A program made the translations under genes and the position numbers. Shown here piece after piece: positions 43,033-59,535 of a DNA stretch of 64,000 nt. A model generated the notes under the pieces. The model did no database searches and was not told the origin of the DNA. It worked only from the letters and a program-made list of their open reading frames with translations. Every line of letters begins with the position of its first letter. The stretch's first letter is position 1. Source of the DNA: Acidovorax sp. A79 (GTDB lineage: Bacteria > Pseudomonadota > Gammaproteobacteria > Burkholderiales > Burkholderiaceae_C); NCBI RefSeq assembly GCF_041154505.1, contig NZ_AP028672.1, positions 5,124,501 through 5,188,500 on the forward strand. Reading direction: 5' to 3'.

Positions 43033-43095
43033 GCTGACTCCTTGAAGTGAAAACAACAACAACGACAACCACCACGCCACACCGCCCCCAAAAGC

Positions 43096-43129
43096 AAAAG
43101 ACCTCGGTCCACTGAAGGAGCCGGGGTCT
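43096..43129 (-). terminator. Minus-strand hairpin between DUF932 and YqaJ genes
   Basis: On the minus strand AGACCCCGG pairs with CCGAGGTCT (one G-T pair) around a 13-base loop, followed by TTTTGC. Lies between the two genes. Confidence 0.7.
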
Positions 43130-43185
43130 ATGCCGTGAAGGGCGGTGAGGTTGGATGGATAAACCGCAAAGAACGGCAGACACCG

Positions 43186-44187: not shown

Positions 44188-44287
44188 TGGAATGCTCCTT
44201 GATAAATGAATGAAAAGAGAACGAGGGGAGGGAAGTGAGAAAAGTGACAAGCCTGAAGAGCGCGAAAAGGGCAAAAAGGGCGAGCGC

Positions 44288-44617: not shown

Positions 44618-44679
44618 GGGGAAATCTCCTTGGGGTGTGTGATGTGAAGGACGGAAGAACGAGGAACGAACGGCCAAAG

Positions 44680-44711
44680 AAAAAGCCCCGGGTGGTGAAC
44701 ACGCGGGGCTT
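44680..44711 (-). terminator. Minus-strand terminator upstream of the integrative-element block
   Basis: On the minus strand AAGCCCCG and CGGGGCTT flank a 13-base loop and are followed by TTTCTTT. It would stop transcripts coming from further right before the 44288-44617 gene. Confidence 0.75.
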
Positions 44712-45070
44712 GGAGTAGGGGATGCGGACCGTTCTGGCGCTACCGAGACGGCATAGCGCCCGGCAGCGCTGCTGGGGCGTGCCGGGTGGGGAGGGTGTCA
44801 GACCGGGGCAATGCAGAGGTCATTCAGTTGGCAGTTCGAGGGGGTGATATGTGATTGAACAAATCTGGGATCGGATTTGGGTGGATGGGTGTTTGCACGG
44901 CAACAGGCTGGTCCCAGAGGAACTGAGACGGGAGCGTGATCTATTTCATCCAAGAGCAAAGAGCTGTGTTGGGGGGCGGAGTTGCTTTGATCCGACATTG
45001 CAAGGCGATTGATAGATTGCTTTCCGCCCACTCGATTGATGCGGCACACCCTGCAAAAAGAGCCTGAACT
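44712..45070. other. Gap between integrative-element block and biosynthetic cluster
   Basis: About 360 bases. Only short frames without family features. The terminator at its left edge suggests that another minus-strand gene once lay here. No attachment site recognised. Confidence 0.45.
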
Positions 45071-45976
45071 TTATGCTGAAGCTTGTGGCCAGCTCGCTCC
45101 TGATAGCAGTCGTCGAATGCACTCCCGCAGCCACCGGTGCGCCGAATCTGAATTGAAACGTGCATGCCAAGCAAGCACGACTTGCTCGACTTCGAACTTC
45201 AACGGCAATTGAAATGTCCTGAGTTGAAGTGGCCCCTGAACGCTTGAGGCGAAGCGTGCGGGAGCTGTTGCAACCAGATTGGAGCGCGCAGCAGCCATCA
45301 GCGCGGCATAGGGGCTTGGAACGGTCAGCAGAACGAAGCGACGATAGCCCATTTCCGCGAGAGCTGAGTCGATCGGATTGGACATCCGTCCTCGCTGGCG
45401 CACGGCGACGTGACATTCAGCTGCGAATCTCTTGGCAGTGATCGGCACCGAAAGCATCGGGTGCTGCTCACGCACGACGCCAACAACTTTCTGCGAAAAC
45501 AACGGCACGGACTGGATATCGGAAGTCTGCTCCCCAAGCGCGCCAATATCTAAGTCGACGTGTGCCTCTCTCAGATCGGAGAGATCTCCTTCCGAGTCGG
45601 GGATGAATTGCAGCTTTGCGCGCGGCATCTCCTTGTGCAGCGCATCGGCGAGCGCTGCGCCAAAAACGATCGCAACCCCATCAGGAGCGCGGATGACAAA
45701 GGTGCGAGCTACATGGTTCAGTCCTCCATCGCCGGGCGTCAACAATGAGGCGGCCTCTTCAACGAGCTTGCGCACTCGCTCACGCATCTCCTGTGCGCGA
45801 GGCGTAGGGACTAGTTGTCGCCCCGCGCGTACCAAAATTTCATCGCCTGTCACCTCACGAATTCTTGCAAGAGTGTGACTCATTGCCGGCGTGCTGATAT
45901 GCATCCGTCGAGCGGCACCGCCCACACTTCCTTCCGACAGAAGAGCATCTAGAGCCGACAGCAAATTTAGATTCAT
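45071..45976 (-). CDS. LysR-type regulator of the biosynthetic cluster
   Basis: A 301-aa LysR regulator of the NodD/PcpR-like type: helix-turn-helix NLLSALDALLSEGSVGGAAR and MHISTPAMSHTLARIREV, then the effector domain. It is divergent from the MFS gene across a 94-base gap that contains the perfect palindrome TTAGTTAACTAA, ten bases from its own start codon. By position it should control the cluster and itself. The inducer may be the product or a precursor; unknown. Confidence 0.9.
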   Translation of the reverse strand: MNLNLLSALDALLSEGSVGGAARRMHISTPAMSHTLARIREVTGDEILVRAGRQLVPTPRAQEMRERVRKLVEEAASLLTPGDGGLNHVARTFVIRAPDGVAIVFGAALADALHKEMPRAKLQFIPDSEGDLSDLREAHVDLDIGALGEQTSDIQSVPLFSQKVVGVVREQHPMLSVPITAKRFAAECHVAVRQRGRMSNPIDSALAEMGYRRFVLLTVPSPYAALMAAARSNLVATAPARFASSVQGPLQLRTFQLPLKFEVEQVVLAWHARFNSDSAHRWLRECIRRLLSGASWPQASA

Positions 45977-45985
45977 GATTAAATT

Positions 45986-45997
45986 TTAGTTAACTAA
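45986..45997. promoter_or_regulatory. Palindromic operator candidate in the LysR-MFS gap
   Basis: TTAGTTAACTAA is a perfect 12-base palindrome centred 16 bases from the LysR start and about 80 bases before the MFS start. LysR regulators bind such sites in divergent promoters. Confidence 0.6.
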
Positions 45998-46070
45998 CAG
46001 TTCTAAAGATTGCACTGTACTTTATGTGTGCATGCCTCGAAACTCCTGCATCAATGGAGAGAGGTGTTGC

Positions 46071-47498
46071 ATGCAAGGTAGAGAGACATGGGACCGGCCG
46101 GTTCTGGCGTCGTTAGTGATCGTGCTTGCGTTGGCAGCGCTGGATCAGACGATCGCGTCAACTGCGCTTCCCACGATTGCGGATGATTTGCAAGGTCACC
46201 GGCTGCTTAGCTGGATTTTTTCCGTCTACCTCATCGCTTCGACAGCCGTGATACCGCTGTATGGAAGGCTGGCGGATCGATACGGGACCCGCTCCACGCT
46301 TCTCTTTGCTGCAGGCATATTCGTCATGGGATCGGCCGCATGTGGTCTGAGTCAGCAAATCGAGGAACTCCTCCTGGCGCGTTGTCTGCAAGGTTTGGGC
46401 GGTGGTGGCTTGATGACGCTCTCGATGCTGGCTGCCAGGGACGCGGTTCCTCAGCGCCGTCTTGGCCAGGTTCAGGGCATGCTGGGTAGTGCCTACGGGC
46501 TGGCTGCACTCTTGGGCCCGCTGCTGGGTGGATGGCTTGCGCAAGAGTACTCCTGGCGCTGGGCGTTCTTGTTGAACGTACCCATTGGTCTGATGGCGCT
46601 TGCTGCGCTGTTCTGGATGTATCGCCCTCTCGCGAAAGCAGCAGCTATTGCCGTGGATTCGATTGGGTGCGGCTTACTTGCCGTTTTTCTCGCGCTTTTG
46701 CTTGTCGCAGCTCGAGGCTTTGGTATGGCGCACGGGGCTAGCGTACTGGAGACTGTGGTTGCGCCTGTCTTGGCCGTGGTGGCTGGGCTCCTCTTTGTCT
46801 GGCGCGAGCTTGTGGTCCCCAGGCCACTTCTACCTGTTCACATGTTTCGGCAGTGTGTGTTTTTGCTCAACGGAATTCTGAGCGTGTGTACAGGGGTTGC
46901 TCTCTTCTCGGTTGTAGTGTTCACGCCGCTGTATTGGCAATACGCCATGGGGATGACGGCTGTACAGGCGGGATTGCACATGCTTCCTTTGATGGCTGCC
47001 ATATCGTTGTCTTCCGTCATGGGCGGAAAGTGGCTGGCAAGCAGTGGACAGTTGCGCGCGATGGCCGCTGTCTCGGCACTACTGATGGCCGGAGGCTACA
47101 TGGGTCTCGCCCTGGGTGTGAACGCTGCCAGTGTGTCGGGAAGCCTCTACGCATTGAGTGTCCTCGGGGCGGGCATTGGCCTTGCGATACCGCTTTCGAT
47201 GATGACTGTGCAACGTTTGGCTCAGCCGCGGGATCAAGGGATCGCCACTGCGCTTCCCATCATGTTCCGCACCGCAGGGGGGGCGCTTGGGGTTTCGTTC
47301 CTGGGAGCTGTCCTCACGCAGCAATTGGAGGCCGTGCCCGGCGGAACGGGGTCGGCAGAGGGCGTTGCCGCAGCCTTTGCCTCTGCATCAGGCGCAATTT
47401 TTTGGATGTCTGCACTGCCGTGTGCCTTGGTGAGCCTGTCGATGCTGGCCATGCCGCGCACCTTGCCAGCCCCACAGGTTCTTATCGCCAATCACTAA
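46071..47498 (+). CDS. MFS efflux transporter, DHA2 (EmrB/QacA) type
   Basis: A 475-aa membrane transporter with about fourteen membrane segments. Motif A is GRLADRYGTRSTLL, and LDQTIASTALPTIADDL at the first segment is typical of DHA2 drug:proton antiporters, as is LGPLLGGWLAQEYSWRWAFL (motif C region). The ATG at 46071 with GGAGAGAGG gives this length. First gene of the cluster, probably exporting the product or conferring self-resistance across the inner membrane. Confidence 0.92.
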   Translation: MQGRETWDRPVLASLVIVLALAALDQTIASTALPTIADDLQGHRLLSWIFSVYLIASTAVIPLYGRLADRYGTRSTLLFAAGIFVMGSAACGLSQQIEELLLARCLQGLGGGGLMTLSMLAARDAVPQRRLGQVQGMLGSAYGLAALLGPLLGGWLAQEYSWRWAFLLNVPIGLMALAALFWMYRPLAKAAAIAVDSIGCGLLAVFLALLLVAARGFGMAHGASVLETVVAPVLAVVAGLLFVWRELVVPRPLLPVHMFRQCVFLLNGILSVCTGVALFSVVVFTPLYWQYAMGMTAVQAGLHMLPLMAAISLSSVMGGKWLASSGQLRAMAAVSALLMAGGYMGLALGVNAASVSGSLYALSVLGAGIGLAIPLSMMTVQRLAQPRDQGIATALPIMFRTAGGALGVSFLGAVLTQQLEAVPGGTGSAEGVAAAFASASGAIFWMSALPCALVSLSMLAMPRTLPAPQVLIANH

Positions 47499-47511
47499 AG
47501 GAGGGAGTTAT

Positions 47512-48831
47512 ATGAAATCGTCAGTTAGCGTTTCTGCAAGTTCGGCTGGAGTCCCACCACCCCCGCTTCGCGTTGTGAACAAAGGCAGTGTGCAGCGCGA
47601 GGAGATGGGTGCGGGATCCAGCACATGGTGGTTTGATGCTCGTGGCCTCGATGATGCAGCTCTGAGGCAGGCAGTGGAACGCTCCAACTGCACGCATTTG
47701 CTCGTCGACCACTCGGCGCTCAAGTCCATAACGAGTGCAAAAAAGCTAGTCGTTTGGGTCGACAAGGTCGGTGATCTGTCCGACTTAGCTCCGAGCGTTT
47801 CGGTGCTTACACCGCACGAAGAGGTTCGGAAAGCCGCTGTGGCTAGTGGAAGAGCTGCGGGCCTCTTCATCGAGGTTCGGGATCTCGAAGCGGAGTTCCC
47901 CTACTGCGTCATGGTGTGCGAACGCGGCGATGACTTTGTGGTGATTGACATCGAGCACGCAACGTACATTCCGTACGAACTTCTAATCGCAAAAACGATT
48001 GGAAAAAATACACAAGTGCTACGCAGCGTTCCAATCAAGGGGCTCGCCCGAGTGGTCGATGATATCCATCAGTCACTCAACGCCTTCGCCACCATGGAGC
48101 ACGGCATCGGTGTCGTCTTTCGCTCCAAGGATGTCGCGGCTGTTGACAGCCTGAGTAAGAACCTGCGGCACCGCCAAGCTTCGATCATGAACCTGCTGCC
48201 GGCTCGGGTCGAAGAAATTCAGCACACGGGGTTGGGACATCGCGTGTGCGTCGATACCACCTCGATGATGAGTGCGGAAGAGGGAATGGTGGTCGGGTCT
48301 ACCGGGTGGGGCGGCATTCTGGTTTGCTCTGAGACGCATCACTTACCACACATGAACCTGCGTGAGTTTCGGGTGAACGCGGGTGCCGTGCATTCGTATA
48401 TATGGGGACCTGATGGTTCAGCGTTCTACCTGAGCGAGATGCGTGCTGGCGCCGAGGTGATGTGCGTTGACTTGGCTGGACGGGCACGGGTCGTCTCGGT
48501 GGGTAGAGCCAAGATCGAGCGTCGGCCAATGTTGAAGATTCGTTGCAGCGTACCGCTTGAATCAGTTCCGCCTCAACTTCAAGCAAGAGTCGAAAGCATG
48601 CTCGAGATGCAAGAGCGAGTTACCCCCAAAGGGGAACGTGTCGGTAGTGGTGATCGTCGCGTCCACATCAATACCTTCCTGCAGAACGATTGGCATGTGC
48701 GAGTCATGGGAGCCGACGGGAAGGTGCGGCACTGCACCTTGCTGCAGCCTGGCGACGAGTTGTTGGCCCATGTCGACGACCCGGGGCGACACACGGGACT
48801 GCGAATCGAAGAAAACATCATCGAAAAATGA
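47512..48831 (+). CDS. 3-dehydroquinate synthase II family enzyme (GriH-like)
   Basis: A 439-aa protein of the archaeal-type dehydroquinate synthase II family. Segments DDFVVIDIEHATYIPYELLI, GIGVVFRSKDVAAVDSL, HRVCVDTTSMMSAEEGMVVG and FRVNAGAVHSYIWGPDG are characteristic. In Streptomyces GriH, a member of this family, forms 3-amino-4-hydroxybenzoate from the product of the aldolase GriI. The next gene is a GriI-like aldolase, which makes this role far likelier than archaeal-style dehydroquinate synthesis. AAAGGAGGG six bases before the ATG is one of the strongest ribosome binding sites in the window. About 50 extra residues precede the family core. Confidence 0.87.
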   Translation: MKSSVSVSASSAGVPPPPLRVVNKGSVQREEMGAGSSTWWFDARGLDDAALRQAVERSNCTHLLVDHSALKSITSAKKLVVWVDKVGDLSDLAPSVSVLTPHEEVRKAAVASGRAAGLFIEVRDLEAEFPYCVMVCERGDDFVVIDIEHATYIPYELLIAKTIGKNTQVLRSVPIKGLARVVDDIHQSLNAFATMEHGIGVVFRSKDVAAVDSLSKNLRHRQASIMNLLPARVEEIQHTGLGHRVCVDTTSMMSAEEGMVVGSTGWGGILVCSETHHLPHMNLREFRVNAGAVHSYIWGPDGSAFYLSEMRAGAEVMCVDLAGRARVVSVGRAKIERRPMLKIRCSVPLESVPPQLQARVESMLEMQERVTPKGERVGSGDRRVHINTFLQNDWHVRVMGADGKVRHCTLLQPGDELLAHVDDPGRHTGLRIEENIIEK

Positions 48832-48850
48832 GATAGGAAGGAGGGAAAAA

Positions 48851-49657
48851 ATGGCTTCTGGCCGCGAACTTAGATTGAATCGGCTCATCAACCCCGTTTC
48901 TCAGAAGGCACTTTTGGTACCCCTGGATCACGGTGCTACCGTGGGGCCCATTGAAGGTATTTCGAAGATTCGAAGAACCATCGCAGGAATTGGTTCAAGT
49001 GGTGCCAATATTCAGGGAATCATTGTGCACCGCGGTGTTGCACACAACAGCCGCAGTCCAGTGTGGGACGTTCCTGCGCCCCTGATTTTGCATCTATCCG
49101 CATCTACATCGCTTGCGCGGGATTCGACGCACAAAGTTCTTGTTGCTCAGGTCGAGGATGCCTTGGTGATGGGCGCTGATGCTGTCTCTATTCATGTGAA
49201 CCTTGGCTCCCTCGCGGAAGTCGGCATGCTGCGTGATATGGGATCCGTCGCGAGCCAGTGCGAGCGATGGGGCGTGCCCTTGTTGGCGATGGTTTATACG
49301 CATGGTGAATCGGCCTCAGCGTCATCCACCGCACGTATTGCGCATGCGGCAAGACTGGCTGCCGAGCTCGGAGCCGACTTGGTGAAGGTCAACTACCCCG
49401 GTTCGCCCGAAGCCATGGCGGAGGTCGTGGAAGGCTGTTTCGTGCCGGTGCTTGTCGCAGGAGGAGAACGCGCGACGACGGAGGCGCAGGTCCTCAGCGT
49501 GGTCGATGGCGCGTTGCAAGGAGGTGCCAGTGGGCTGTGCATGGGGCGAAACATATTCCAGCATGCCGACCCGGGAGCGTTTCTGGCACGGCTGTCCCGC
49601 CATGTACATGGCTTTGACGCCCATCGCCAAGCCGTTTCACTGGCCGCAGTGAGGTAA
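48851..49657 (+). CDS. DhnA/class I FBA-like aldolase (GriI-like)
   Basis: A 268-aa TIM-barrel aldolase of the 2-amino-3,7-dideoxy-threo-hept-6-ulosonate synthase/GriI family. LLVPLDHGATVGPIEGI at the start, DAVSIHVNLG, DLVKVNYPGSPEAMAE (Schiff-base Lys) and PVLVAGGERATTEA are typical. GriI joins aspartate-4-semialdehyde and dihydroxyacetone phosphate; GriH then closes the ring. The ATG at 48851 with AAGGAGGGA is chosen over the longer frame inside the previous gene. The pair thus predicts 3-amino-4-hydroxybenzoate as building block. Confidence 0.87.
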   Translation: MASGRELRLNRLINPVSQKALLVPLDHGATVGPIEGISKIRRTIAGIGSSGANIQGIIVHRGVAHNSRSPVWDVPAPLILHLSASTSLARDSTHKVLVAQVEDALVMGADAVSIHVNLGSLAEVGMLRDMGSVASQCERWGVPLLAMVYTHGESASASSTARIAHAARLAAELGADLVKVNYPGSPEAMAEVVEGCFVPVLVAGGERATTEAQVLSVVDGALQGGASGLCMGRNIFQHADPGAFLARLSRHVHGFDAHRQAVSLAAVR

Positions 49658-49660
49658 ACA

Positions 49661-50986
49661 ATGTCCTTTCTAGCCAAGAACTACCACCGCCCTTTGCCTG
49701 CGATCGTTCGGAAATACTTCGCGAACGGTAGTGAGCATGTCGACATCTGGCCCGAGGATCGGTTGAAAGCGTATCAGGCAGAGGCGTTACGCCGCATCCT
49801 CATGCACGCGTATGAGCGCAACGGCTTCTACCGCGAAAAGTTCCAGGCGGCAGGTGTCGTGCCTGCCAGGCTAAGTTTGCCTGACGACCTTGCTCGGATC
49901 CCCTTGACGACCAAGGACGAGATCCGAGGCAAGCCTTGGTTGCTGCTGTCGGTGCCTCGTCAGGCTGTATCGCAGATCCATGTGTCAACAGGAACGACGG
50001 GGGGTGAAGAGATCTACATACCCCATACCTGGGAGGACTTGCACGTCAACAACATGTCGCCAGCCATGCGTCTGCTCATTCCCGTGGGTGAGTCGGATGT
50101 AGTGATCAATGCTTTGCCCCACGAGATGAGTTCTTCTGGATTGGCGTTTCACCGCACATTTCAGAAGAGCTACGGTGCCATGGTCGTTCCAATGGGGAAG
50201 GGCGGGTATTACTCCACACCTGAGCGCACGCTCCGTGCTTCGGTGGATTTGGGGGCAACGGTTCTGATCACCACGCCATCCTATGCAGTGCTGCTGGCCG
50301 AAGTTGCGCAGCGTATGGACATCGACCTAGGTGCGCTACCTTTGCGCTTCATGTGGCTGACTGGCGAGGGCTGTTCCCCGGCGCTACGAGATCGCATCGA
50401 AAAGTTGTGGGGCCATCCAGCCTATTTCTACTACGGCTCCCTGGAGGCAGGCCCCATAGGCATCGAGTGCTCTGCACGCAATGGCTATCACATGGCAGGC
50501 GGGCATGTGCATGTAGAGGTAGTTGATCCAACTACCGGGGAGGCTGTGGCTCCAGGTGAGATCGGAGAGGTAGTGGTCACCGAGCTCACACGGATGGCTT
50601 CTCCGCTGATTCGCTATAGAACTGGCGACATCGGTTATGTCGAAAAGTCAAGGTGCTCTTGTGGCGTCACGCTGGACCGTCTCATTCTGAGAGGTCGGGC
50701 AGGTGATCAGGTTCGAATCGGAGAAAAGACATATGGCCCCTACTACTTGGAGCAGTTTCTCCTTGAGATTCCAGATGTTGGAAACTGGTATCAGTTCTTG
50801 CCTCAGGGAGATCAATTGCTGATACGTCTGGAGGCGAATCACGGATCAGAAGACAGGGACCGGCTGGCTCGCGCCATAGCGAGTCGGTTTGAATTCTCGA
50901 CGGGTATTAAAGCAACCGTTGAGTTCGTGGACAGCATTCCCCGCACCGGTGGGAAGACGATCCGAGTCATCCAGCCCGCCGCGTAA
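49661..50986 (+). CDS. PaaK-type adenylate-forming ligase 1
   Basis: A 441-aa enzyme of the phenylacetate-CoA ligase family. Features in order: P-loop STGTTGGEEIYIP, aromatic motif YYGSLEAGPIGIEC, RYRTGDIGY, then a C-terminal subdomain with GKTIRV. It is expected to activate an aryl acid as acyl-AMP (and perhaps CoA ester). It starts 3 bases after the aldolase gene. The CxC near the RYRTGD region (KSRCSCGV) is typical of the family's zinc-like pair. The likely substrate is the aminohydroxybenzoate made upstream or a second aryl acid. Confidence 0.88.
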   Translation: MSFLAKNYHRPLPAIVRKYFANGSEHVDIWPEDRLKAYQAEALRRILMHAYERNGFYREKFQAAGVVPARLSLPDDLARIPLTTKDEIRGKPWLLLSVPRQAVSQIHVSTGTTGGEEIYIPHTWEDLHVNNMSPAMRLLIPVGESDVVINALPHEMSSSGLAFHRTFQKSYGAMVVPMGKGGYYSTPERTLRASVDLGATVLITTPSYAVLLAEVAQRMDIDLGALPLRFMWLTGEGCSPALRDRIEKLWGHPAYFYYGSLEAGPIGIECSARNGYHMAGGHVHVEVVDPTTGEAVAPGEIGEVVVTELTRMASPLIRYRTGDIGYVEKSRCSCGVTLDRLILRGRAGDQVRIGEKTYGPYYLEQFLLEIPDVGNWYQFLPQGDQLLIRLEANHGSEDRDRLARAIASRFEFSTGIKATVEFVDSIPRTGGKTIRVIQPAA

Positions 50987-51001
50987 CTTCGAAAGAACCA
51001 A

Positions 51002-52273
51002 ATGCGTTTTCTTCATGAAAAGTTCAGGCCAACGACCAGCACGCTTCATCGGGTGGTCGCGCATGCCTATGACCGTAGCCCGATGTATCGAAAGAAGATG
51101 CAGAGTCGCGGCGTCGCTCCGCACCAAATTGACACGGAAAACGACCTGCCGCAGCTTCCTTTCACGACACGGGAAGAGCTCGGGTCGGATCCTTGGGCGT
51201 TGCTTTGTGTTCCCCGTTCGACCTTGGTGCAGGCCCATATGTCCACCGGCACAACAGGGCGCAATCCGCTGTATGTCGCTTACGACTGGGAGGATTTGTA
51301 CACGCGGGGGCTGATGCCCCTCAGTTCCGATAAATCCGTCCCACGGCTCCTTCGCATCGAGCCTGGCGAGATCGTCTTCAATGCACTGCCGTACGAAGTC
51401 AGCGTCACTGGCTTGGCCATCCACCGCTCCGTACAGGACGGGATCGGAGCATGTGTTGTGCCTTTGGGCAAAGGCGGTTTCTATTCCGAGCCACTGAAAG
51501 CCTTGAAGATGATGCGCGAGATTCGTGGCGACCATTTGTTCACTACTCCGTCTTATGCCGTGTACCTGGCGGAACTTGCAGGTGCACCCCAAGCGGGGTT
51601 GAAGGAGATGTTTGGTCTCAAGTCCATCTGGCTTGTTGGTGAACTTTGCTCAGACGCTTTGCGACGGCGTATCGAACAATTGTGGGGGGCGCCAGTGTTC
51701 CTCTACTACGGAACTATGGAGTGTGGGCCAGTGGGGGTGGAATGCGCTGAGCAGGATGGTTATCACCCCGCGACGAATTTCACAGCAGTGGAGATCGTGC
51801 CTCTCGACGAGCCAATAACCGATGCGATGGGAGCCGCGCTTGGCGAAATAGTAGTCACTACGCTCTGGCGCTACGCGACCCCACTGATTCGCTATAGGAC
51901 AGGCGATCTTGGCCGTTGGGATGAGCAGTCATCGGGTTCCGGCGGATGTGCTCGACGGCTGCGCGTGCATGGACGGTTGGAGGATGTTGTGCGCGTGGCG
52001 GGGAAAGTTCTCCACGTCCAGGACATTGAACAGGGCCTTCTGGATATTCCCGAAGTGAGTTCGTGGTTCCAATTGCGCCCCGAAGGGGATGTCTTGTGCA
52101 TTGTGCTACCTGCTCAGAAGGGAGTGGATGCAGCCGCTGTAGCTCGAAGGGTTCAGCATTGGGCAGTTACCTACCTGGGCCTTGATTGCAAGGTCGAGCA
52201 TGGTCCAGCCCGTTCTTACTCGGGTGGAAAGTTCATGCGCGTTGTTCGTGCAACACAAGGAGAAATTAGATGA
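51002..52273 (+). CDS. PaaK-type adenylate-forming ligase 2
   Basis: A 423-aa paralogue of the preceding ligase: STGTTGRNPLYVAYDWEDLY, YYGTMECGPVGVECAEQDGY, RYRTGDLGRWDE and GGKFMRV. N-terminal about 35 residues shorter than ligase 1. Two clearly diverged ligases side by side suggest two different activation steps, for example of donor and acceptor units, or one acting as a condensing enzyme as in nataxazole biosynthesis. The stop overlaps the amidohydrolase start (ATGA). Confidence 0.87.
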   Translation: MRFLHEKFRPTTSTLHRVVAHAYDRSPMYRKKMQSRGVAPHQIDTENDLPQLPFTTREELGSDPWALLCVPRSTLVQAHMSTGTTGRNPLYVAYDWEDLYTRGLMPLSSDKSVPRLLRIEPGEIVFNALPYEVSVTGLAIHRSVQDGIGACVVPLGKGGFYSEPLKALKMMREIRGDHLFTTPSYAVYLAELAGAPQAGLKEMFGLKSIWLVGELCSDALRRRIEQLWGAPVFLYYGTMECGPVGVECAEQDGYHPATNFTAVEIVPLDEPITDAMGAALGEIVVTTLWRYATPLIRYRTGDLGRWDEQSSGSGGCARRLRVHGRLEDVVRVAGKVLHVQDIEQGLLDIPEVSSWFQLRPEGDVLCIVLPAQKGVDAAAVARRVQHWAVTYLGLDCKVEHGPARSYSGGKFMRVVRATQGEIR

Positions 52274-53058
52274 TCATTGACGCTCATGCGCACGTGACTC
52301 GTGCGGACTACGGCTCTATCGATCGGCTATCTGCTTTGATGGACAAGCACGGCATTGACAAAGCTGTTCTTTTTCCGGGGGGCATGATCGATGTGCGTCA
52401 AATGTCGCAGTACGTGCGAGGCGCAGCCACTGCTGATACGGATCAGATCCCTAATGACTTGGTCGAATCCATTTTCACGAAGGACCGTGACCGGTATTTT
52501 GGCTTCTACTGTGTGAATCCCAATAGCGCGGGCGATAGCACTACGGCATTTCGAGCAGCGATCGCGAGAGGGTTTAGTGGGCTAAAGCTGGCCCCGATTG
52601 TTCACAAATTCGCACTGTGCTCCGAGGGAGTTTTCGAGTTGGCGCGAGCATGTGGCGAGCTTCGCGTTCCACTGTATTCGCACGTCGTCTTCAGCCCTGG
52701 CGCCACTACTGAAAAGTTTGGCGAACTCGCCAAGGCGTTTCCTGACACGCAGTTCATATTGGGGCACATGGGCTTCGGTCCAGCTGATGTGCAAGCCATT
52801 GAGGTGGCTGCGACCTGTGACAACGTCATGCTCGAGACATCCGGCGGATCTTTCATGATCATCAAGATGGCGCTGGAGCGGCTGGGAGCAGGGAAACTCA
52901 TCTATGGATCGGAGTTCCCCATGCAGCACCCCCACGTCGAACTCGAGAAAATCCGCATGACTGCTGGTGGCGAGGATTTCAAGAAGATTTCCTCTCGAAA
53001 TCTTTTGTCTCTTTTCGAGCAGCGCAAGCTGCCGCAAAGCGTGGAGCTTTCTCAATGA
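52270..53058 (+). CDS. Amidohydrolase_2-fold protein, possible heterocycle-forming cyclase
   Basis: A 262-aa TIM-barrel protein of the ACMSD-like amidohydrolase_2 family: HxH in IIDAHAHV, GLKLAPIVHKF, His in YSHVVFSPG, LGHMGFG and the strand-8 motif YGSEFPMQHP. The usual Asp of strand 8 (GSDFP) is Glu here. In nataxazole biosynthesis an amidohydrolase-fold enzyme closes the benzoxazole ring after ester formation by a CoA-ligase-like enzyme; the same neighbour logic applies here. Alternatively it is a decarboxylase or hydrolase acting on an aminophenol ring. Coupled to ligase 2 and the DUF2141 gene by four-base overlaps. Confidence 0.8.
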   Translation: MIIDAHAHVTRADYGSIDRLSALMDKHGIDKAVLFPGGMIDVRQMSQYVRGAATADTDQIPNDLVESIFTKDRDRYFGFYCVNPNSAGDSTTAFRAAIARGFSGLKLAPIVHKFALCSEGVFELARACGELRVPLYSHVVFSPGATTEKFGELAKAFPDTQFILGHMGFGPADVQAIEVAATCDNVMLETSGGSFMIIKMALERLGAGKLIYGSEFPMQHPHVELEKIRMTAGGEDFKKISSRNLLSLFEQRKLPQSVELSQ

Positions 53059-53483
53059 AGGCGGCTCACTTACTTGCACTCATGCTAGTCGCCCTTCTCA
53101 GTGAGCATGCGGCGTTCGCTGCTGATCTGGTGCTTGAGGTCAAAAGTTCGCAAGCCTCGGGGCGAGTCAATGTTGCGCTTTATGACAGTGCCACAAGCTT
53201 CCTTCGCAAGACGGTTGCTTCCAGCGGAGGTGACCTGAAGAACGGTGTCGCGATACTTAGTTTCCCGAACCTGGCACCTGGCAACTACGCAATCTCGGCT
53301 TATCTGGACGCCAATGGCAACAACAAGCTTGACACTAATTCGATGGGAATTCCTTCCGAACCCTATGCCTTCAGCCGCAGCGCCAAGGGTCGCATGGGAC
53401 CTCCAACCTTCGAAGACGCAGCTTTTGCGGTGGGTTCTTCCGGGACGAAACTCACGATCGAACTGTCGAAGGGACGGCCATGA
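53055..53483 (+). CDS. DUF2141 periplasmic protein
   Basis: A 142-aa exported protein: signal peptide MKAAHLLALMLVALLSEHAA (cleavage after AFA) and the DUF2141 pattern VALYDSATSF, SFPNLAPGNYAISAYLDANG, NNKLDTNSMGIPSEPYAFS, AKGRMGPPTFEDAAF. The family is a small beta-sandwich of unknown function found in the periplasm. Four-base overlaps at both ends tie it to the biosynthetic and transport genes. Confidence 0.9.
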   Translation: MKAAHLLALMLVALLSEHAAFAADLVLEVKSSQASGRVNVALYDSATSFLRKTVASSGGDLKNGVAILSFPNLAPGNYAISAYLDANGNNKLDTNSMGIPSEPYAFSRSAKGRMGPPTFEDAAFAVGSSGTKLTIELSKGRP

Positions 53484-54223
53484 CTGCGCTGCTACATGGC
53501 GAAGGGGTTGCAACCCCGGTCGCCGTACCAGCAAAGCCCTTGGTCGCAATCAGTGGATTGCACCGATCATTTTCACTTGGCCACACAACGGTTAAGGCGC
53601 TTCGGGGAGTGGATCTGAAGATCCATGCGGGTGAAATGCTAGCAGTCTGGGGACCCTCGGGGAGTGGTAAGTCCACTCTGATGAACATGATCGGATTGAT
53701 TGATAGACCAGATACCGGTAACGTTTGCTTCAAGGGCATTGAGGTGTTGGCACTTAGCGATGATGAACTCAGCGACTGCCGCAGCCGGAACATCGGCTTT
53801 GTGTTTCAGTCCTTCAATCTCGTTCCCGTCCTCACTGCGTTGGAGAACGTCATGCTTCCCCTTCAATTGCAGGGGGTCGGTGCGCAGGTGGCTCGTGCCA
53901 AGGCACAGGGACTTTTGGATGCCGTGGGATTGGGAGCCCATCTGAATCATCGACCGGATCGTATGAGTGGGGGGCAGCGCCAACGAACCGCCATCGCACG
54001 AGCTCTGGTGGCTGACCCAGAACTGGTGATCGCGGATGAGCCGACGGCGAACTTGGACTCCGAAAGCAGCCAGAACGTGATTTCTCTCATGCGGGAACTC
54101 AACCGGGACACGGGGACGACATTCGTGTTCTCTACGCACGACCAGCGTCTTTTGGACCACGTCCCACGAGCCGTGCAGCTAAGGGACGGGATCATCGAGC
54201 ATGATCAGGAGTGTGCCCAATGA
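53480..54223 (+). CDS. LolD/MacB-type ABC transporter ATP-binding protein
   Basis: A 247-aa ATPase: Walker A GPSGSGKST, Q-loop FQSFNLVPVLTALENVMLP, signature MSGGQRQRTAIARALV, Walker B LVIADEPTANLD and switch His in FSTHDQRLL. It belongs to the LolD/MacB/FtsE group that works with FtsX-type permeases by mechanotransmission rather than simple transport. Start ATG overlaps DUF2141 stop. Confidence 0.95.
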   Translation: MTALLHGEGVATPVAVPAKPLVAISGLHRSFSLGHTTVKALRGVDLKIHAGEMLAVWGPSGSGKSTLMNMIGLIDRPDTGNVCFKGIEVLALSDDELSDCRSRNIGFVFQSFNLVPVLTALENVMLPLQLQGVGAQVARAKAQGLLDAVGLGAHLNHRPDRMSGGQRQRTAIARALVADPELVIADEPTANLDSESSQNVISLMRELNRDTGTTFVFSTHDQRLLDHVPRAVQLRDGIIEHDQECAQ

Positions 54224-55446
54224 ATGTGCTGGAGTTGAGCGTACGAAATCTCCTGCGGAATCCGAGAAGGACAGCAGTGACTGCGTTGAGTTTGGCCGTG
54301 GGATTCGCAGCCATCGCCTTGTTTGCAGGCTATACGGCAACCGTCTACGAGAGTCTGAAATCCCAGGCCATCTATGGGGAGCTATTGGGTCATCTGACCA
54401 TAGCGCGCCCCGCCTACTTTGAGGCCAGTCGGCAGGAGCCGACAAGGTTCCTGTTGGGAAAGGAACAGGTCGGGAGCATTTCCTCTATCGTGAAGTCAGA
54501 ATTTCCTGGTTCTACCGTCGCCGTGCGATTGGGGTTCAGTGGACTGTTGTCTAACGGCCGGGCGAGCAGCATCTTTGTCGCCGAAAGCCTAGATCCAGAG
54601 GCAATGCGGGCCCTCCGAGGACCGCGCGCGCGGGCATCTGGAGGGCTTGATGAGAAGTCACCTCAGGGCGTGACATTGTCCCGCGGACTTGCCCAGATTC
54701 TGGATCTTCGCGATGGAAGTGATGGCGCGGTTCTGGTGAGCACGGTAACGGGGCAAGCAAATGCGTCGGATGTCCAGATCATTGATACCTTCAGTACAGG
54801 AAATGTCGCAACCAATGACAAATTCATGTTTGCGCCTCTTTCCTTGGCTCAGTCCCTTATGGATGTCCAGGGGCAGGCCGATCGGGTAACGGTGCTGTTG
54901 CCGGAGGGCACAGATGTGAACACCGCGAGGCACCAACTCGCCGACAGACTTGCCGCCAAGGAGGATGGCCTTGCCGTTGAAGTTTGGCAAGATCTTTCCA
55001 TTTTTTATGCGCAGGTCAAGGCCCTGTTCGACAGGGTATTTGCGTTTGTCCTGGCCATTGTGCTTGTCATCGTTGCGATGAGTGTGGCGAACGCGATGGG
55101 TATGAGTGTGATTGAACGCACGCGAGAGATCGGTACTCTTCGGGCGATGGGCTTACGTCGATCTGGAGTCATCCGCATCTTCATTGCAGAAGCCCTCGTA
55201 CTTGTCTCAGTGGGATGTCTGCTAGGTGCTGTACTGACTGTTGGCATTACCTACGGTGTGAACCAGCTCGAAATTTCCTATCGGCCGCCCAATGCGACCG
55301 AGGAGGTGCCATTGGTCATCGGCTTCGACTTGATCAAAGCAGGGTTTGGCGCGCTGGCGCTGACATGTATTGGCGCTTTGGCCTCGCTCTTTCCGGCGCG
55401 ACGTGCAGCGGCGCAGCCCATCGTCACCTCGTTGACACATGTTTAG
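54220..55446 (+). CDS. FtsX/LolE-type ABC transporter permease
   Basis: A 408-aa permease with one N-terminal membrane segment (TAVTALSLAVGFAAIALFAG), a large periplasmic domain of about 230 residues (MacB_PCD-like), and three C-terminal segments with the FtsX motif VIERTREIGTLRAMGLRRSG. It partners the preceding ATPase (ATGA overlap). With LolA-like and outer-membrane neighbours it probably extracts a lipid, lipoprotein or amphipathic product from the inner membrane. Confidence 0.93.
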   Translation: MNVLELSVRNLLRNPRRTAVTALSLAVGFAAIALFAGYTATVYESLKSQAIYGELLGHLTIARPAYFEASRQEPTRFLLGKEQVGSISSIVKSEFPGSTVAVRLGFSGLLSNGRASSIFVAESLDPEAMRALRGPRARASGGLDEKSPQGVTLSRGLAQILDLRDGSDGAVLVSTVTGQANASDVQIIDTFSTGNVATNDKFMFAPLSLAQSLMDVQGQADRVTVLLPEGTDVNTARHQLADRLAAKEDGLAVEVWQDLSIFYAQVKALFDRVFAFVLAIVLVIVAMSVANAMGMSVIERTREIGTLRAMGLRRSGVIRIFIAEALVLVSVGCLLGAVLTVGITYGVNQLEISYRPPNATEEVPLVIGFDLIKAGFGALALTCIGALASLFPARRAAAQPIVTSLTHV

Positions 55447-55455
55447 GACATCAGC

Positions 55456-56208
55456 ATGCGCAATTTCTGGATTGGATTGACCATCGTGCTTGGTGGAATC
55501 GTTGCAGCTATTTCCGCGGCCAATGCCACCGAGAATCCTGACGCGGCAGTGTTGCTAAAGCGTTCCGATGCAGCTCGTGGGGGGGGGGCTCCAGGACTGA
55601 CTTGGGAGGTGATTGTGCGAAGCACTGGAGGAGGGGCTCAGGACCAGGATATGCGCATGCGGATCAAGGCGGCCGAGACCGCCAGCCTGGCCGAGACTCT
55701 GGAACCACTCAAAAGCAAGGGCGCCAAAATGCTGCAGATGGATCGCAACATGTGGCTGAGCAAGCCGGGGCTTAAGAAGCCCATTGCGATCTCACCTCGC
55801 CAGCGTCTCTCGGGTCTGGCTGCAATCGGTGATATCGCAGCGACGAACTACGCCAAAGACTATCAGGCAGTGCTTCTCCGACAAGACGATTTCAAGGGGG
55901 AGCCTTGTCATGTTCTGGAGCTCTCCGCGCGGGAGCGCCAAGCTACTTACGATAAATTGATCTACTGGGTTTCCACCAAACGGGGTGTTGGGGTCTTTGC
56001 GGAATTCCTCTCACTGAGCGGAAAGCGCCTCAAGACGGCGGAGTTCTCCTACGAAAACAGCGTGGCCATTGAGGGCAAGACGACGCCGTTCATTAGCAAG
56101 ATGGTCATTTCTGACGCCCTCACGGATGCCAAGACTATTCTTGAGTACGGACAGACCAAGGTCCAGGCGATCCCCTCGTCCGAATTCGATGTTTCGCACC
56201 TGGAGTGA
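55456..56208 (+). CDS. LolA-like outer-membrane lipoprotein-sorting family protein
   Basis: A 250-aa exported protein with a signal peptide (MRNFWIGLTIVLGGIVAAIS, cleavage after AANA) and the COG2834 LolA-like pattern: an amphipathic RSDAARGGGAPG start, KMLQMDRNMWLSKPGLKKPI, and SPRQRLSGLAAIGDIAATNY. Such proteins have a LolA-like half-barrel that can carry a hydrophobic ligand across the periplasm. It contains a run of seven G in the DNA (55580s), within codons, so length change there would shift the frame. Confidence 0.87.
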   Translation: MRNFWIGLTIVLGGIVAAISAANATENPDAAVLLKRSDAARGGGAPGLTWEVIVRSTGGGAQDQDMRMRIKAAETASLAETLEPLKSKGAKMLQMDRNMWLSKPGLKKPIAISPRQRLSGLAAIGDIAATNYAKDYQAVLLRQDDFKGEPCHVLELSARERQATYDKLIYWVSTKRGVGVFAEFLSLSGKRLKTAEFSYENSVAIEGKTTPFISKMVISDALTDAKTILEYGQTKVQAIPSSEFDVSHLE

Positions 56209-56209
56209 T

Positions 56210-57454
56210 ATGCCGTGTCGCTGCATCAATCGGCGAGGCTTTAGGTATGCACTGGCTTCACTTTGTTTTGCCACCTCCACCGCTTTCGCTCAAGAGTCGC
56301 TAGTGCAGACGGCCACCAGTGGTAACGATTGGGAGAAATCGACATCGCTGCAGACGTGGACATATGCTACTCATTCGAGCCCCTTTGCGGACAGTGTCCT
56401 GAACCCCAGAAATTCAATACTGAAGATCGCTAGAACGCAGTATCTTTCCGACACGCGGTTGGACTTTTCTCTGAAGAGCAGCGCTGCTGATTTTGTACTC
56501 AAGCCGCGGCTGATCGGTGAGGTTCGAGAGGGAGACAGTGGGAAGTTATCTACTGCCGAAGGGTATCTCAGTCAAGCTTTCGGAAGATTCCGGATTCGCC
56601 CAGACTTAACGATGACGCTGGGAAGGGAACTGTTGACTTGGGGGCCCGCCAACTTCCGGTCACCCAGCAGTCCGTACTACTACGATTCCGGAAAAACGCG
56701 GCCGTTGGAGGACGTTCCCGGGGTGGACATCGCCCGGATAGACTGGTCGGCCGGGCGGTGGACATCCACCGTAGGTTTCGTTAGTGGGGGACGGCAGAAC
56801 GATGAAGAATGGCGTCAAAGCTCCTTGCTCAAGCTCACTTATCGGGGCAACGATTTTTTGGTTGGCGGCATATTCAGCAAACCAAGAAATAGGCGGAGCT
56901 TTGTGGGGGGGCATGCACAGTTTTCTATAGGAGATGCATGGCTCCTGTATGGGGAGCTGAGCTCGACTACGACCTCAAATATAACTACAACTTCGAGCAC
57001 ATTGGCTGCGGCTGCTCGAGCAACCGTAGGCACGATTGGTGCTGCGTACACATTCGAAGGTGGAGCTTCGCTCGGTGCTGAGTATCTGCATGATGGGCGT
57101 GGCTATAGCCGGGCTGCGCAGGCTGCATATTTTTCAGCTATCGAGGCGTCTTTGGCAAGTTCGCAAATTGCCGTCGATTTGCGACGGGGTGGTCAGTCGC
57201 GTCTGTTGGGTCGGGACTACCTCAACATTTTGCTGCAGAGCAATTTGCAAGATCCCTCGACTTACTGGCGGGTATCGCCAACCGTGAATCTGCAGGATCG
57301 AAGTCGCCAACTTCTTTTGTACGGTGAGCATAGTCTCCACCCAAGAATCGCTCTCTTTGGTAGTTTGCTCTGGAGCAGTGGAGGGCGTTCAACTGAGTTC
57401 GGCGCAGTAGTGCGATCCACCGCGACTTTGGGACTCAAGATTTTCTTGATGTGA
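56210..57454 (+). CDS. Putative outer-membrane beta-barrel protein
   Basis: A 414-aa protein. The ATG at 56210 follows the LolA-like stop by one base; the N-terminus RRGFRYALASLCFATSTAFA is a signal peptide. The mature part has alternating amphipathic strands (LDFSLKSSAADFVLKPRLIG, ARTQYLSDTR, FGRFRIRPDLTMTLGRELLTWG, LLLYGEHSL) and ends in FLM after LGLKIF, compatible with a beta barrel. It is similar in style to DUF1302/porin-like partners of LolA-like genes. Likely the last gene of the cluster, an exit or receptor at the outer membrane. Confidence 0.72.
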   Translation: MPCRCINRRGFRYALASLCFATSTAFAQESLVQTATSGNDWEKSTSLQTWTYATHSSPFADSVLNPRNSILKIARTQYLSDTRLDFSLKSSAADFVLKPRLIGEVREGDSGKLSTAEGYLSQAFGRFRIRPDLTMTLGRELLTWGPANFRSPSSPYYYDSGKTRPLEDVPGVDIARIDWSAGRWTSTVGFVSGGRQNDEEWRQSSLLKLTYRGNDFLVGGIFSKPRNRRSFVGGHAQFSIGDAWLLYGELSSTTTSNITTTSSTLAAAARATVGTIGAAYTFEGGASLGAEYLHDGRGYSRAAQAAYFSAIEASLASSQIAVDLRRGGQSRLLGRDYLNILLQSNLQDPSTYWRVSPTVNLQDRSRQLLLYGEHSLHPRIALFGSLLWSSGGRSTEFGAVVRSTATLGLKIFLM

Positions 57455-57499
57455 ACCTGTAGGGCTTGCTAACTAAGAAAACCATGGCGAGATGGTCGC

Positions 57500-57528
57500 G
57501 AGACGAATCGTCTCACGCCACATTTTTT
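57500..57528 (+). terminator. Terminator after the biosynthetic cluster
   Basis: GAGACG-AAT-CGTCTC forms a six-pair hairpin (seven with the A-T at the top); ACGCCACA then TTTTTT follows. It separates the biosynthetic operon from the QatABCD operon. Confidence 0.65.
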
Positions 57529-57573
57529 CGGAACTGTTGGTGCCACAGTGTGGCTTATGGGGAGATGAGGCTA

Positions 57574-59535
57574 ATGATCCTGACCGACAACGAAACCAAA
57601 GTTGACCTGCTCAACAACGAGGCGATTTCGAAGACCATCATCGAACTGCTGCGCGAAAACCCAGATCATCCAGTCACGATTGGCGTCCACGGTGACTGGG
57701 GGGCCGGGAAGTCCAGTGTTTTGGAGATGATCGAAGCGGGCTTCGCGGGTAAGGAGGACGTGCTGTGCCTCAAGTTTAACGGTTGGCGTTTTCAAGGTTT
57801 CGAGGATGCCAAGATCGCGTTGATCGAGGGAATCGTCACCGGTCTGGTCGAGAAGCGTCCGGCAATGACCAAAGCTGGTGGGGCACTCAAGGATGTCTTC
57901 AATCGTATCGATTGGTTGAAGGTCGCGAAGCGCGCAGGTGGCTTGGCGGTCACCGCATTCACTGGCATCCCGACACCGGATCAAATCAGCGCTGTCGTGG
58001 GGACGCTCGAAGGGATATTCGCCGACCCAGGCCAGCTGGCGACGAAAGAGAACCTCACGTCTGCCATTGAAGGCGTAAAGTCAATCTTGAAACCGGCAGA
58101 AACCAAGAATGTGCCGGAGGAGGTTGAGGCGTTTCGCAAGGCGTTCGACAAGCTCCTGAAGGATGCTGGCATCAAGCAGCTCATTGTGCTGATTGATGAC
58201 CTTGACCGCTGCTTGCCGGATACGGCCATAGACACACTCGAAGCGATCCGACTGTTTGTGTTTACCGCGCGCACGGCGTTTGTCGTTGCCGCGGATGAGG
58301 CAATGATTGAGTATGCGGTGCGTAAGCACTTCCCCGATCTACCTGAGACCACGGGGCCGCGCGATTACGCTAGAAGCTATCTGGAGAAGTTGATCCAGGT
58401 GCCATTCCGGATCCCGGCCTTGGGGGAGACGGAAACGCGCATGTACGTGACACTGTTGCTGACGGGCGCTGAGATAGGCGAAGGGGATGCTGACTACGCA
58501 AAGCTCGTTGCAGCAGCGCGGGAACGCCTAAAACGGCCTTGGGAAAACGCCGGTCTCGATGCTGCGGCCGTCAAGGCCGCACTTGGAGCAAAGGCAGATA
58601 AGGCCAACAACGCCCTCGCGCTCAGCGAGCAGATCGGCCCGATCCTGGCGAGCGGTGCCAAAGGCAATCCTCGCCAGATCAAGCGCTTCCTCAATACGTT
58701 GCTGCTGCGGGAGCGCACGGCGAACGCGCGCGGATTCGGTGCTGATATCACCTTGCCCGTGCTGGCGAAGCTGATGCTCGCCGAGCGCTTCATCCCCCGG
58801 CTCTTTGAGCAGATTGCTTTCGTCTCAGCCGTTCATCCCAAGGGGACTTGCGACGACTTGGAGCATCTTGAGAAGAGTTTTGCCGCCGAAGGCGCGAACG
58901 TCAAGGGCGATGGTAAGGCGGCGACGGACTTGCGCAAAGCGTCCAAGACCACGGAAACCGTTGCGTCGGAAGTGGAGAGCGCCGTCCTGTCGGAATGGAG
59001 GTTGTCGGAAACGGTTCGCGATTGGGCTCGGGTGCAGCCCTTGCTCTCCGGCATCGACCTACGTCCGTATCTCTTCGTGACGAAAGACAAGAAGGATTAC
59101 TTTGGCCCTGTGTCTATATTGGGGCACCTGGCCACAGTGGTGGAGAAACTGTTCGGTGGAAAGATGACCGTTCAGGGTTATGAGTCCGAGCTAAGGCAAT
59201 TGGCTCAACCGGAAGCCGACAAGGTGTTCGAGGCTGTGCGCATCAAGATCATGGGCACCGGTGCCCTTGAAACTCTACCCACGGGCGTCAATGGTCTCAT
59301 CGTGTTGGTAAAGGCGCAACCGGGGCTGCAGAGCAAGCTGCTGGACTTTCTAGAGGCTCTGCCAAGTAGCAAGTGCGGCCCGTGGGCGGTCAGTGGCTGG
59401 CAGGGTGTCGTTAAGGACGCGGACTGTGTCGGTCGCCTTACGGCATTGCTCACGGAATGGAGCAAAGTGACCAACAACCCCGCCCTCAAAGCAGCCGCCG
59501 AGCTGGCACTAAAGGATACGAAGGGAGCACGCTGA
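57574..59535 (+). CDS. qatA: QatA, KAP-family P-loop NTPase
   Basis: A 653-aa KAP NTPase. Walker A is GVHGDWGAGKSS (about residues 37-48) and Walker B IVLIDDLDRCLPDTAIDTLE; further KAP features are CLKFNGWRFQGFEDAK and AKGNPRQIKRFLNTLLL. I chose the ATG at 57574 (MILTDNE), nine bases after GGGGAG; earlier starts exist but add an unrelated stretch. First gene of a QatABCD anti-phage operon; it overlaps qatB (TGATG). The mechanism of Qat is not resolved. Confidence 0.9.
   Translation: MILTDNETKVDLLNNEAISKTIIELLRENPDHPVTIGVHGDWGAGKSSVLEMIEAGFAGKEDVLCLKFNGWRFQGFEDAKIALIEGIVTGLVEKRPAMTKAGGALKDVFNRIDWLKVAKRAGGLAVTAFTGIPTPDQISAVVGTLEGIFADPGQLATKENLTSAIEGVKSILKPAETKNVPEEVEAFRKAFDKLLKDAGIKQLIVLIDDLDRCLPDTAIDTLEAIRLFVFTARTAFVVAADEAMIEYAVRKHFPDLPETTGPRDYARSYLEKLIQVPFRIPALGETETRMYVTLLLTGAEIGEGDADYAKLVAAARERLKRPWENAGLDAAAVKAALGAKADKANNALALSEQIGPILASGAKGNPRQIKRFLNTLLLRERTANARGFGADITLPVLAKLMLAERFIPRLFEQIAFVSAVHPKGTCDDLEHLEKSFAAEGANVKGDGKAATDLRKASKTTETVASEVESAVLSEWRLSETVRDWARVQPLLSGIDLRPYLFVTKDKKDYFGPVSILGHLATVVEKLFGGKMTVQGYESELRQLAQPEADKVFEAVRIKIMGTGALETLPTGVNGLIVLVKAQPGLQSKLLDFLEALPSSKCGPWAVSGWQGVVKDADCVGRLTALLTEWSKVTNNPALKAAAELALKDTKGAR

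Follow-up and report, generated by a model that had tools for sequence, protein, structure and literature searches.

We have identified a gene cluster in Acidovorax sp. A79 that probably encodes a closoxazole-type pathway making a 2-arylbenzoxazole from 3-amino-4-hydroxybenzoate (3,4-AHBA), the product being one that we infer from the predicted enzymes. The cluster occupies positions 45071-57454 of the window, by which we mean the whole 64,000-nucleotide stretch of DNA that was analyzed, corresponding to C1:5124501-5188500 of the 5.87-Mb Acidovorax genome. Its closest known system is closoxazole, not nataxazole. A sequence-only reading of the same DNA had proposed a 3,4-AHBA-derived benzoxazole cluster in a Comamonadaceae-like bacterium, with an exporter, a divergent LysR regulator, and no need for a nonribosomal peptide synthetase (NRPS) or polyketide synthase (PKS). 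The host genus agrees with that proposal, no NRPS or PKS is encoded in the run of 11 genes, exporter and regulator are both present, and the match of the enzyme set to closoxazole supports the assigned compound class. Benzoxazoles are drug scaffolds that the closoxazole route makes without an NRPS or PKS, and this cluster shows the closoxazole gene set in a Gram-negative betaproteobacterium.

The locus is composed of 11 plus-strand genes and a divergent LysR gene, and each named gene is an open reading frame (ORF) at the position given below. Within the 11-gene run (46071-57454), intergenic gaps calculated from the coordinates range from -13 to +19 bases. The genes include a major facilitator superfamily (MFS) exporter, a type II dehydroquinate synthase (DHQS-II), and an ATP-binding cassette (ABC) ATPase.

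45071-45976, minus strand: LysR-type regulator, divergent from the operon (PF03466, 71 bits; PF00126, 51 bits)
45986-45997, no strand: 12-bp perfect palindrome TTAGTTAACTAA between the LysR and MFS genes (read from the sequence)
46071-47498, plus strand: DHA2/EmrB-like MFS exporter (PF07690, 168 bits; TIGR00711, 209 bits against a cut-off of 230)
47512-48831, plus strand: DHQS-II, candidate 3,4-AHBA synthase in the GriH/PfxD/ClxB role (PF01959, 265 bits)
48851-49657, plus strand: DhnA-type class I aldolase, candidate for the GriI/PfxE/ClxE role (PF01791, 148 bits; NF005556, 290 bits against a cut-off of 241)
49661-50986, plus strand: ligase 1, a PfxA/ClxC-type PaaK-like adenylating ligase of clade C (PF00501, 45 bits)
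51002-52273, plus strand: ligase 2, a PaaK-like ligase of a separate clade, clade B (NCBIfam PaaK model, 171 bits, below cut-off)
52270-53058, plus strand: ClxD/PfxB-type condensing amidohydrolase, candidate benzoxazole cyclase (PF04909, 85 bits)
53055-53483, plus strand: DUF2141 protein with a signal-like N-terminal segment (PF09912, 102 bits)
53480-54223, plus strand: LolD-like ABC ATPase (PF00005, 108 bits; TIGR02211, 228 bits against a cut-off of 308)
54211-55446, plus strand: LolE/MacB-like FtsX-type permease (PF02687, 59 bits; PF12704, 32 bits)
55456-56208, plus strand: LolA-like periplasmic protein (PF17131, 111 bits)
56210-57454, plus strand: putative outer-membrane beta-barrel protein (signal-like N-terminus; 2 of 26 alignment members match Porin_4)

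The MFS start was placed at the ATG at 46071, which is preceded by the Shine-Dalgarno-like GAGAGAGG, in preference to 46026, and the aldolase start at 48851 is an ATG internal to a longer listed ORF. Ligase 2 gave no Pfam match at 1e-3. The palindrome occurs once on the plus strand of the window and is retained in the A. benzenivorans copy of the locus; it is a candidate operator.

The closoxazole pathway type has been published since 2022 (Horch et al., as cited in PMC12118335). In this route, ClxE and ClxB make 3,4-AHBA, as PfxE and PfxD are assumed to do, ClxA (PfxC) couples two units, ClxD (PfxB) cyclizes, and ClxC (PfxA) adds a third unit; the two ligases and the amidohydrolase of Pyxidicoccus fallax made closoxazole A in vitro (PMC12118335). 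We named the ORFs of the P. fallax cluster (L047) by their published order, namely PfxA (8566-9969), PfxB, PfxC (10754-12022), PfxD, and PfxE. The window holds one candidate for each of the five closoxazole functions: the DhnA-type aldolase and DHQS-II are adjacent, the amidohydrolase is of the ClxD/PfxB family, and ligase 1 is of the ClxC/PfxA type (ClxC being tied to PfxA through PMC12118335). Ligase 2, the candidate for the first coupling, is not of the ClxA/PfxC type, and we therefore refer to the cluster as a closoxazole-type variant.

The amidohydrolase, a 262-residue protein with a single PF04909 domain, scores 187 bits to its P. fallax counterpart. Our scan of named genomes covered the best 80 of 272 confirmed relatives, at 79 loci, and is not a census. 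Fifty loci scoring at least 170 bits were classed as close and the 29 scoring less as distant; L003, from A. benzenivorans D2M1, is the same cluster as that in the window, so 49 other close loci remain. His6, His8, His138, His166, and Glu215 are invariant in all 50 rows made up of the window and these 49 loci, P. fallax included. Of the 29 distant proteins, 24 carry Asp at position 215, 2 carry Glu, 2 carry Asn, and 1 has a gap; Asp is likewise the residue there in 3cjp and 4inf, relatives of solved structure. Judging from these alignments, the Glu215/Asp mark appears to separate closoxazole-type cyclases from most other PF04909 proteins and would be usable for genome mining. Position 106 is Met in PfxB and Lys in the window protein.

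The surroundings of the amidohydrolase follow the same division. At 1e-8, the 50 close loci have DHQS-II as a neighbor in 38 cases, the aldolase in 38, and a PaaK-type ligase in 46, whereas none of the three was detected at any of the 29 distant loci. This control is a little generous, since fewer distant loci (15 of 29, against 35 of 50 close ones) reach 15 kb. The same five-enzyme set is found in 29 of the 49 other close loci, the P. fallax locus among them. Neighborhood comparison therefore bears out what the sequence-only reading expected, with ligases and amidohydrolase conserved beside the aldolase and DHQS-II. Two further genomes of the genus retain this DNA, and the enzyme types are found together repeatedly in other phyla, so the gene set is more than a chance assembly.

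The two ligases were placed in a rooted FastTree tree of 137 rows, 41 of which were also analyzed with IQ-TREE. FastTree separates clade A (38 rows with ClxA and PfxC, support 1.0), clade B (33 rows with ligase 2, support 0.996), and clade C (64 rows with PfxA and ligase 1), with B and C joined at 0.843. Ligase 1 matches the presumed PfxA ORF of P. fallax at 477 bits, and the two share a clade of 47 rows with support 1.0. IQ-TREE recovers clade A at 100/100, clade B at 100/99, and B with C at 98/97, although C is not a single clade; the sister of clade B may lie on either the A or the C side. To our knowledge, no member of clade B has been characterized. The sequence-only reading was right that two PaaK-type ligases are present, but they are not a ClxA plus ClxC pair. 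No ClxA/PfxC-type gene was found elsewhere in the genome either, as a PfxC search returned, besides the two ligases of the cluster, PaaK and a pair of weak matches. With the ligase profile at 1e-50, 73 of 369 phylum genomes match; the Acidovorax cluster gives 688 and 592 bits, and the other places listed give at most 235. We equate ClxA with PDB entry 9s3l, in which the residues that PMC12519233 names carry the same numbers. Thr222 of ClxA is a phosphate contact (PMC12519233), and the aligned letters are Thr (34) and Ala (4) in clade A, Leu (18) and Met (15) in clade B, and Leu (55), Thr (8), and Met (1) in clade C.

Ligase clades were counted at the amidohydrolase loci from ORFs of at least 380 residues, with split or contig-cut ligases excluded. 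One clade-A and one clade-C ligase accompany DHQS-II and aldolase in 27 of the 49 other close loci, and two more have one clade-A and three clade-C ligases. None of the 49 has a clade-B ligase. Twelve show no clade-A ligase, several of them being cut short, and L025 and L026 have two clade-C ligases and none of clade A. The four-ligase loci are closoxazole-like clusters in Sporosarcina luteola (L017) and a Neobacillus metagenome-assembled genome (MAG; L024), and they may lead to larger products. Outside Acidovorax, the linkage of clade B to such clusters rests on equal contig sizes among the best 120 of 252, 169, and 264 proteins. There are five cases in which relatives of ligase 2, ligase 1, and the amidohydrolase lie on same-sized contigs, of 54,090 bp (Variovorax paradoxus), 51,532, 61,221, 20,582, and 19,630 bp. 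A 33,935-bp Rokubacteria contig carries one clade-B and one clade-C ligase. The ligase 2 and barrel protein searches scored the best 7991 and 7994 candidates, respectively.

GriI and GriH convert aspartate semialdehyde and dihydroxyacetone phosphate into 3-amino-4-hydroxybenzoate. The candidate for the GriH role is the only DHQS-II in the genome (search matches are two pieces of one gene) and passes no NCBIfam cut-off. There is an ordinary AroB-family gene at C1:4323940, so DHQS-II does not replace AroB. In the aldolase, K179, which we take to be the Schiff-base lysine, is conserved in 90% or more of 39 rows. The pair may have a different history from the rest of the cluster, since both proteins are closer to Klebsiella michiganensis plasmid proteins (NZ_CP048110.1) than to closoxazole-linked ones: DHQS-II is 60% identical to the plasmid protein and at most 42% to those linked to closoxazole, and the corresponding values for the aldolase are 52% and at most 46%. 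A quick tree pairs the window and Klebsiella DHQS-II at 100 by the SH-like approximate likelihood ratio test (SH-aLRT). The plasmid stretch encodes DHQS-II, aldolase, an epimerase-like protein, an MFS pump, and an adenylating enzyme, with no amidohydrolase match. This plasmid, from strain BD177 (source Bactrocera dorsalis), also has S-type pyocin and insertion sequence (IS) genes in the same stretch (L135:15887-21820), and we know of no work on its AHBA-type gene set.

The last genes of the run form an envelope module that, according to the sequence-only reading, completes the unit. The module is present, but it is not specific to the pathway. Relatives of the barrel-like protein, which has no Pfam match of its own and no PDB relative at E 1, occur in 14 of 399 order genomes at 1e-15, the Acidovorax genome included. 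Among the best 8 of the 13 other barrel loci, all 8 have the permease, LolA-like protein, and barrel next to one another, 7 have the ATPase (the eighth contig begins inside the permease), and 1 has DUF2141. No AHBA or amidohydrolase gene was detected at these 8 loci at 1e-3, and one has a 43-bit ligase-like match. Since the module is found without closoxazole genes in other Burkholderiales, it was probably recruited to the cluster. The two are linked in Acidovorax and, by equal contig size, also on the 54,090-bp Variovorax contig and the contig of 61,221 bp; the 51,532-, 20,582-, and 19,630-bp contigs are not among the best 120 of 264 barrel rows. Most of the 50 close amidohydrolase loci have no such module, though parts of one are seen in two MAGs, one from a spirochaete (L013; a similar ABC pair at 177 and 112 bits, and a LolA-like match that is faint at 24 bits) and one from Thermincola (L041; an ABC pair at 194 and 41 bits). 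The canonical Lol models are not passed (LolD, 228 of 308 bits; LolCE, 65 of 362 bits). For a Lol-like locus in Borrelia, BBJ23-BBJ29, transport of a non-polar ligand has been proposed (PMC13078400), and by analogy it is plausible that the module moves the benzoxazole. The cluster thereby suggests, in a form open to testing, that Lol-like machinery has been put to use for a small molecule.

The genomic context indicates that the cluster is accessory, horizontally acquired DNA, on the grounds of patchy occurrence in the genus, absence from a second genome of the same species, low third-position GC content, and an element backbone that occurs elsewhere without the cluster. The order, family, genus, and class genome samples overlap, and the Acidovorax sp. 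A79 genome is counted in each. At 1e-20 the amidohydrolase is found in 3 of 47 genus genomes, namely its own, A. benzenivorans (G1153, equated with L003 because the match has identical contig coordinates), and G1160. A. benzenivorans matches the window at 97% over 50574-64000 and 92% over 37289-50577, and G1160 has ORFs for all 12 genes and matches at 94.9% over 41319-57588. The second genome of the species (G480) gave no amidohydrolase match and one 111-base match to window 44001-64000. Beyond the genus, the amidohydrolase was found in 4 of 399 order genomes at 1e-10 (its own and three weak matches), 1 of 399 family genomes at 1e-20, and 2 of 369 class genomes at 1e-30 (A1 profile). In another genome of the class (L107, in G912), a 577-residue open frame holds an amidohydrolase of the window type, with ligase, DHQS-II, and aldolase within ∼10 kb. 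The amidohydrolase has no relative in viral_contigs, and the 22 PLSDB records that match it are all below 60% identity, 20 among the matches listed being at 24-29%. Third-position GC is 0.60-0.63 in DHQS-II, both ligases, and the amidohydrolase, versus 0.78-0.94 in seven plus-strand ORFs at 14.8-21.2 kb. At 40918-44187, a recombination-directionality-like protein, a YqaJ recombinase, and a DUF932 protein constitute an integrated-element backbone. This is present in G770 (86% over window 39885-44215), where the amidohydrolase is absent. The ends of the element were not found.

Other parts of the window carry genes of different kinds. A complete Qat anti-phage operon (57574-62553; QatA 1040, QatB 452, QatC 702, and QatD 407 bits) lies directly downstream of the cluster on the same strand, and Qat DNA adjoins the cluster in A. 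benzenivorans as well. Genes of a cyclic-oligonucleotide-based anti-phage signaling system (CBASS) at 7064-11392 encode a DncV-like cyclase, E1-E2 and JAB proteins, and a convergent patatin-type effector. Near them, at 2889-5845, a NUDIX-domain protein stands next to a LOTUS/DUF3825 protein, with no PADLOC match at 1e-5. An XylR-type regulator and multicomponent phenol/benzene hydroxylase-like genes of high third-position GC lie at 12699-19342 (some of the proteins were scanned), followed by further catabolic-looking ORFs to ∼28 kb. A 1166-residue protein at 33192-36692 has InlB-like repeats (seven stretches) and an IPTL-CTERM motif.

In the pathway that we propose, the aldolase would join aspartate semialdehyde and dihydroxyacetone phosphate, and DHQS-II would close the ring to give 3,4-AHBA. 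A PaaK-type ligase would then adenylate one 3,4-AHBA and link it to a second, using either the phenol oxygen or the amine. This first coupling is more likely the work of ligase 2, since ligase 1 is of the PfxA type and the main role of PfxA is to add the last unit. Loss of water and closure of the benzoxazole would be driven by the amidohydrolase, which has a predicted metal site of His6, His8, His138, His166, and Glu215, and ligase 1 would then extend the carboxyl group with a further aryl acid to yield a three-unit product like closoxazole A. The LysR protein would control expression and the MFS pump carry the product across the inner membrane, while the Lol-like ABC proteins, LolA-like protein, and barrel may move the product, or a lipophilic partner, to the outer membrane.

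Several observations weigh against a closoxazole-type pathway. Ligase 2 falls outside the clade of ClxA and PfxC, and an approximately unbiased (AU) test did not reject a tree in which clades A and B are held together (p 0.19), so the tree does not tell what ligase 2 does. NatL2 has a structural-zinc site at Cys248, His254, Cys308, and Cys310 and requires its zinc (PMC7204872). The corresponding letters are C-H-C-C in 38 of 38 clade-A, 29 of 33 clade-B, and 60 of 64 clade-C rows, whereas ligase 2 reads C-H-S-S and has lost the CxC half of the site, a change also seen in its Variovorax relative and two more clade-B rows. The aldolase fits a general curated model better than BagB/FevI (226 of 500 bits, behind a score of 272 of 299), and DHQS-II is nearest to a plasmid gene with no amidohydrolase nearby. 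Three of the 49 other close loci (L008, L015, and L041) have amidohydrolase, DHQS-II, and aldolase with no PaaK-type ligase match within the locus. Finally, the ligase 1 gene of A. benzenivorans is split across two contig ends (L108 tail, L141, and L110 head) that carry IS3-family-like sequence, as read from translations, with window positions 50574-50577 on both sides.

Some of these points would suit a pathway that stops at an AHBA-derived amide or ester, with the ligases producing oligo-AHBA or an AHBA conjugate that the amidohydrolase trims or hydrolyzes. The lack of an assigned role for ligase 2 is compatible with this, as is the Klebsiella plasmid, where the closest DHQS-II and aldolase that we found accompany an adenylating enzyme and no amidohydrolase. 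Acting by itself, moreover, ClxA turns 3,4-AHBA into an amide dimer and trimer, and 4-hydroxybenzoate into esters (PMC12519233). Nevertheless, the window amidohydrolase has the Glu signature common to all 50 close rows of the ClxD/PfxB family, a family in which PfxB was shown to cyclize (PMC12118335), and we regard a product lacking a benzoxazole as unlikely. We consider it quite unlikely that the cluster is decaying cargo yielding no product in Acidovorax sp. A79. The split ligase 1, the altered zinc site, and the patchy distribution would fit decay; however, all 12 ORFs are open both in the window and in G1160, and the zinc-site loss is common to three relatives of ligase 2, including that of Variovorax, which argues that it is old and tolerated.

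An aromatic-degradation operon, with PaaK-type CoA ligases and an amidohydrolase-family decarboxylase akin to the upstream phenol-hydroxylase-type genes, is very improbable. Both the PaaK-like and PF04909 families include catabolic enzymes, and aromatic catabolic genes do lie at 12-19 kb, but aldolase and DHQS-II are biosynthetic and co-occur with the other enzymes in other phyla, the metal-site Glu differs from the Asp of 3cjp and of a decarboxylase, and third-position GC is lower than in the catabolic genes. Archaeal-type synthesis of aromatic amino acids, which DHQS-II and the aldolase could in principle serve, is scarcely credible and was rejected on the presence of AroB, with no archaeal sequences compared in a tree; the two genes are moreover accessory and sit with ligases and an amidohydrolase. 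A closoxazole-type pathway is thus the reading that we prefer. The new points are that ligase 2 belongs to a separate clade, that the AHBA pair has unexpected affinities, that a Lol-like module was probably recruited, and that the cyclases share a signature. It is conceivable, though we hold it with more doubt than confidence, that the clade-B ligase makes a coupling unlike that of any characterized closoxazole ligase (another partner acid, bond, or regiochemistry), that clade-B clusters in Burkholderiales and Rokubacteria-like bacteria make an unseen class of benzoxazole, and that the Lol-like module serves specifically to take this hydrophobic small molecule across or into the outer membrane.

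Among the papers listed by our literature search, none was on a closoxazole-type cluster in Burkholderiales; Horch et al. surveyed other phyla in 2022 according to the excerpt of PMC12118335, so the lineage may be listed there. The sequence-only reading had taken nataxazole as its model, acting on the same building block. NatL2 and NatAM do combine a PaaK-like ligase with an amidohydrolase-superfamily cyclase, as in the window, but their substrate is 3-hydroxyanthranilate (PMC12118335, PMC7204872), and the window has AHBA-type genes instead. NatAM is a two-domain protein of ∼494 residues that holds zinc on H75, H77, H253, and more distantly D345, and also uses H290 (PMC7204872), whereas the window protein has a single domain, 262 residues, and Glu215. 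Membership in the NatL2/NatAM system was rejected on this difference in cyclase size and metal ligand. The Borrelia locus BBJ23-BBJ29 shares with the window a MacB/Lol-type ABC pair, a LolA-like protein, and an outer-membrane barrel; its barrel is of the Omp85 type, while that of the window matched no Omp85 model, and no AHBA-type genes are described for it in the excerpt of PMC13078400.

The closoxazole systems are nearer. The clx cluster of Clostridium cavendishii, whose locus is absent from the best 80 of 272 amidohydrolase relatives in our scan, shares the ClxA-ClxE enzyme set as described in PMC12118335 and PMC12519233; its ClxA falls in clade A, unlike either of the window ligases. The pfx cluster of P. 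fallax DSM 14698 (PMC12118335) has the same five enzyme types adjacent, a PfxA-type counterpart of ligase 1, and an amidohydrolase of the PfxB family with the same H6, H8, H138, H166, and E215. The gene order differs, being pfxA-B-C-D-E in pfx and DHQS-aldolase-ligase 1-ligase 2-amidohydrolase in the window, where a clade-B ligase replaces the PfxC-type enzyme and the LysR regulator, the MFS exporter, and the Lol-like module are added.

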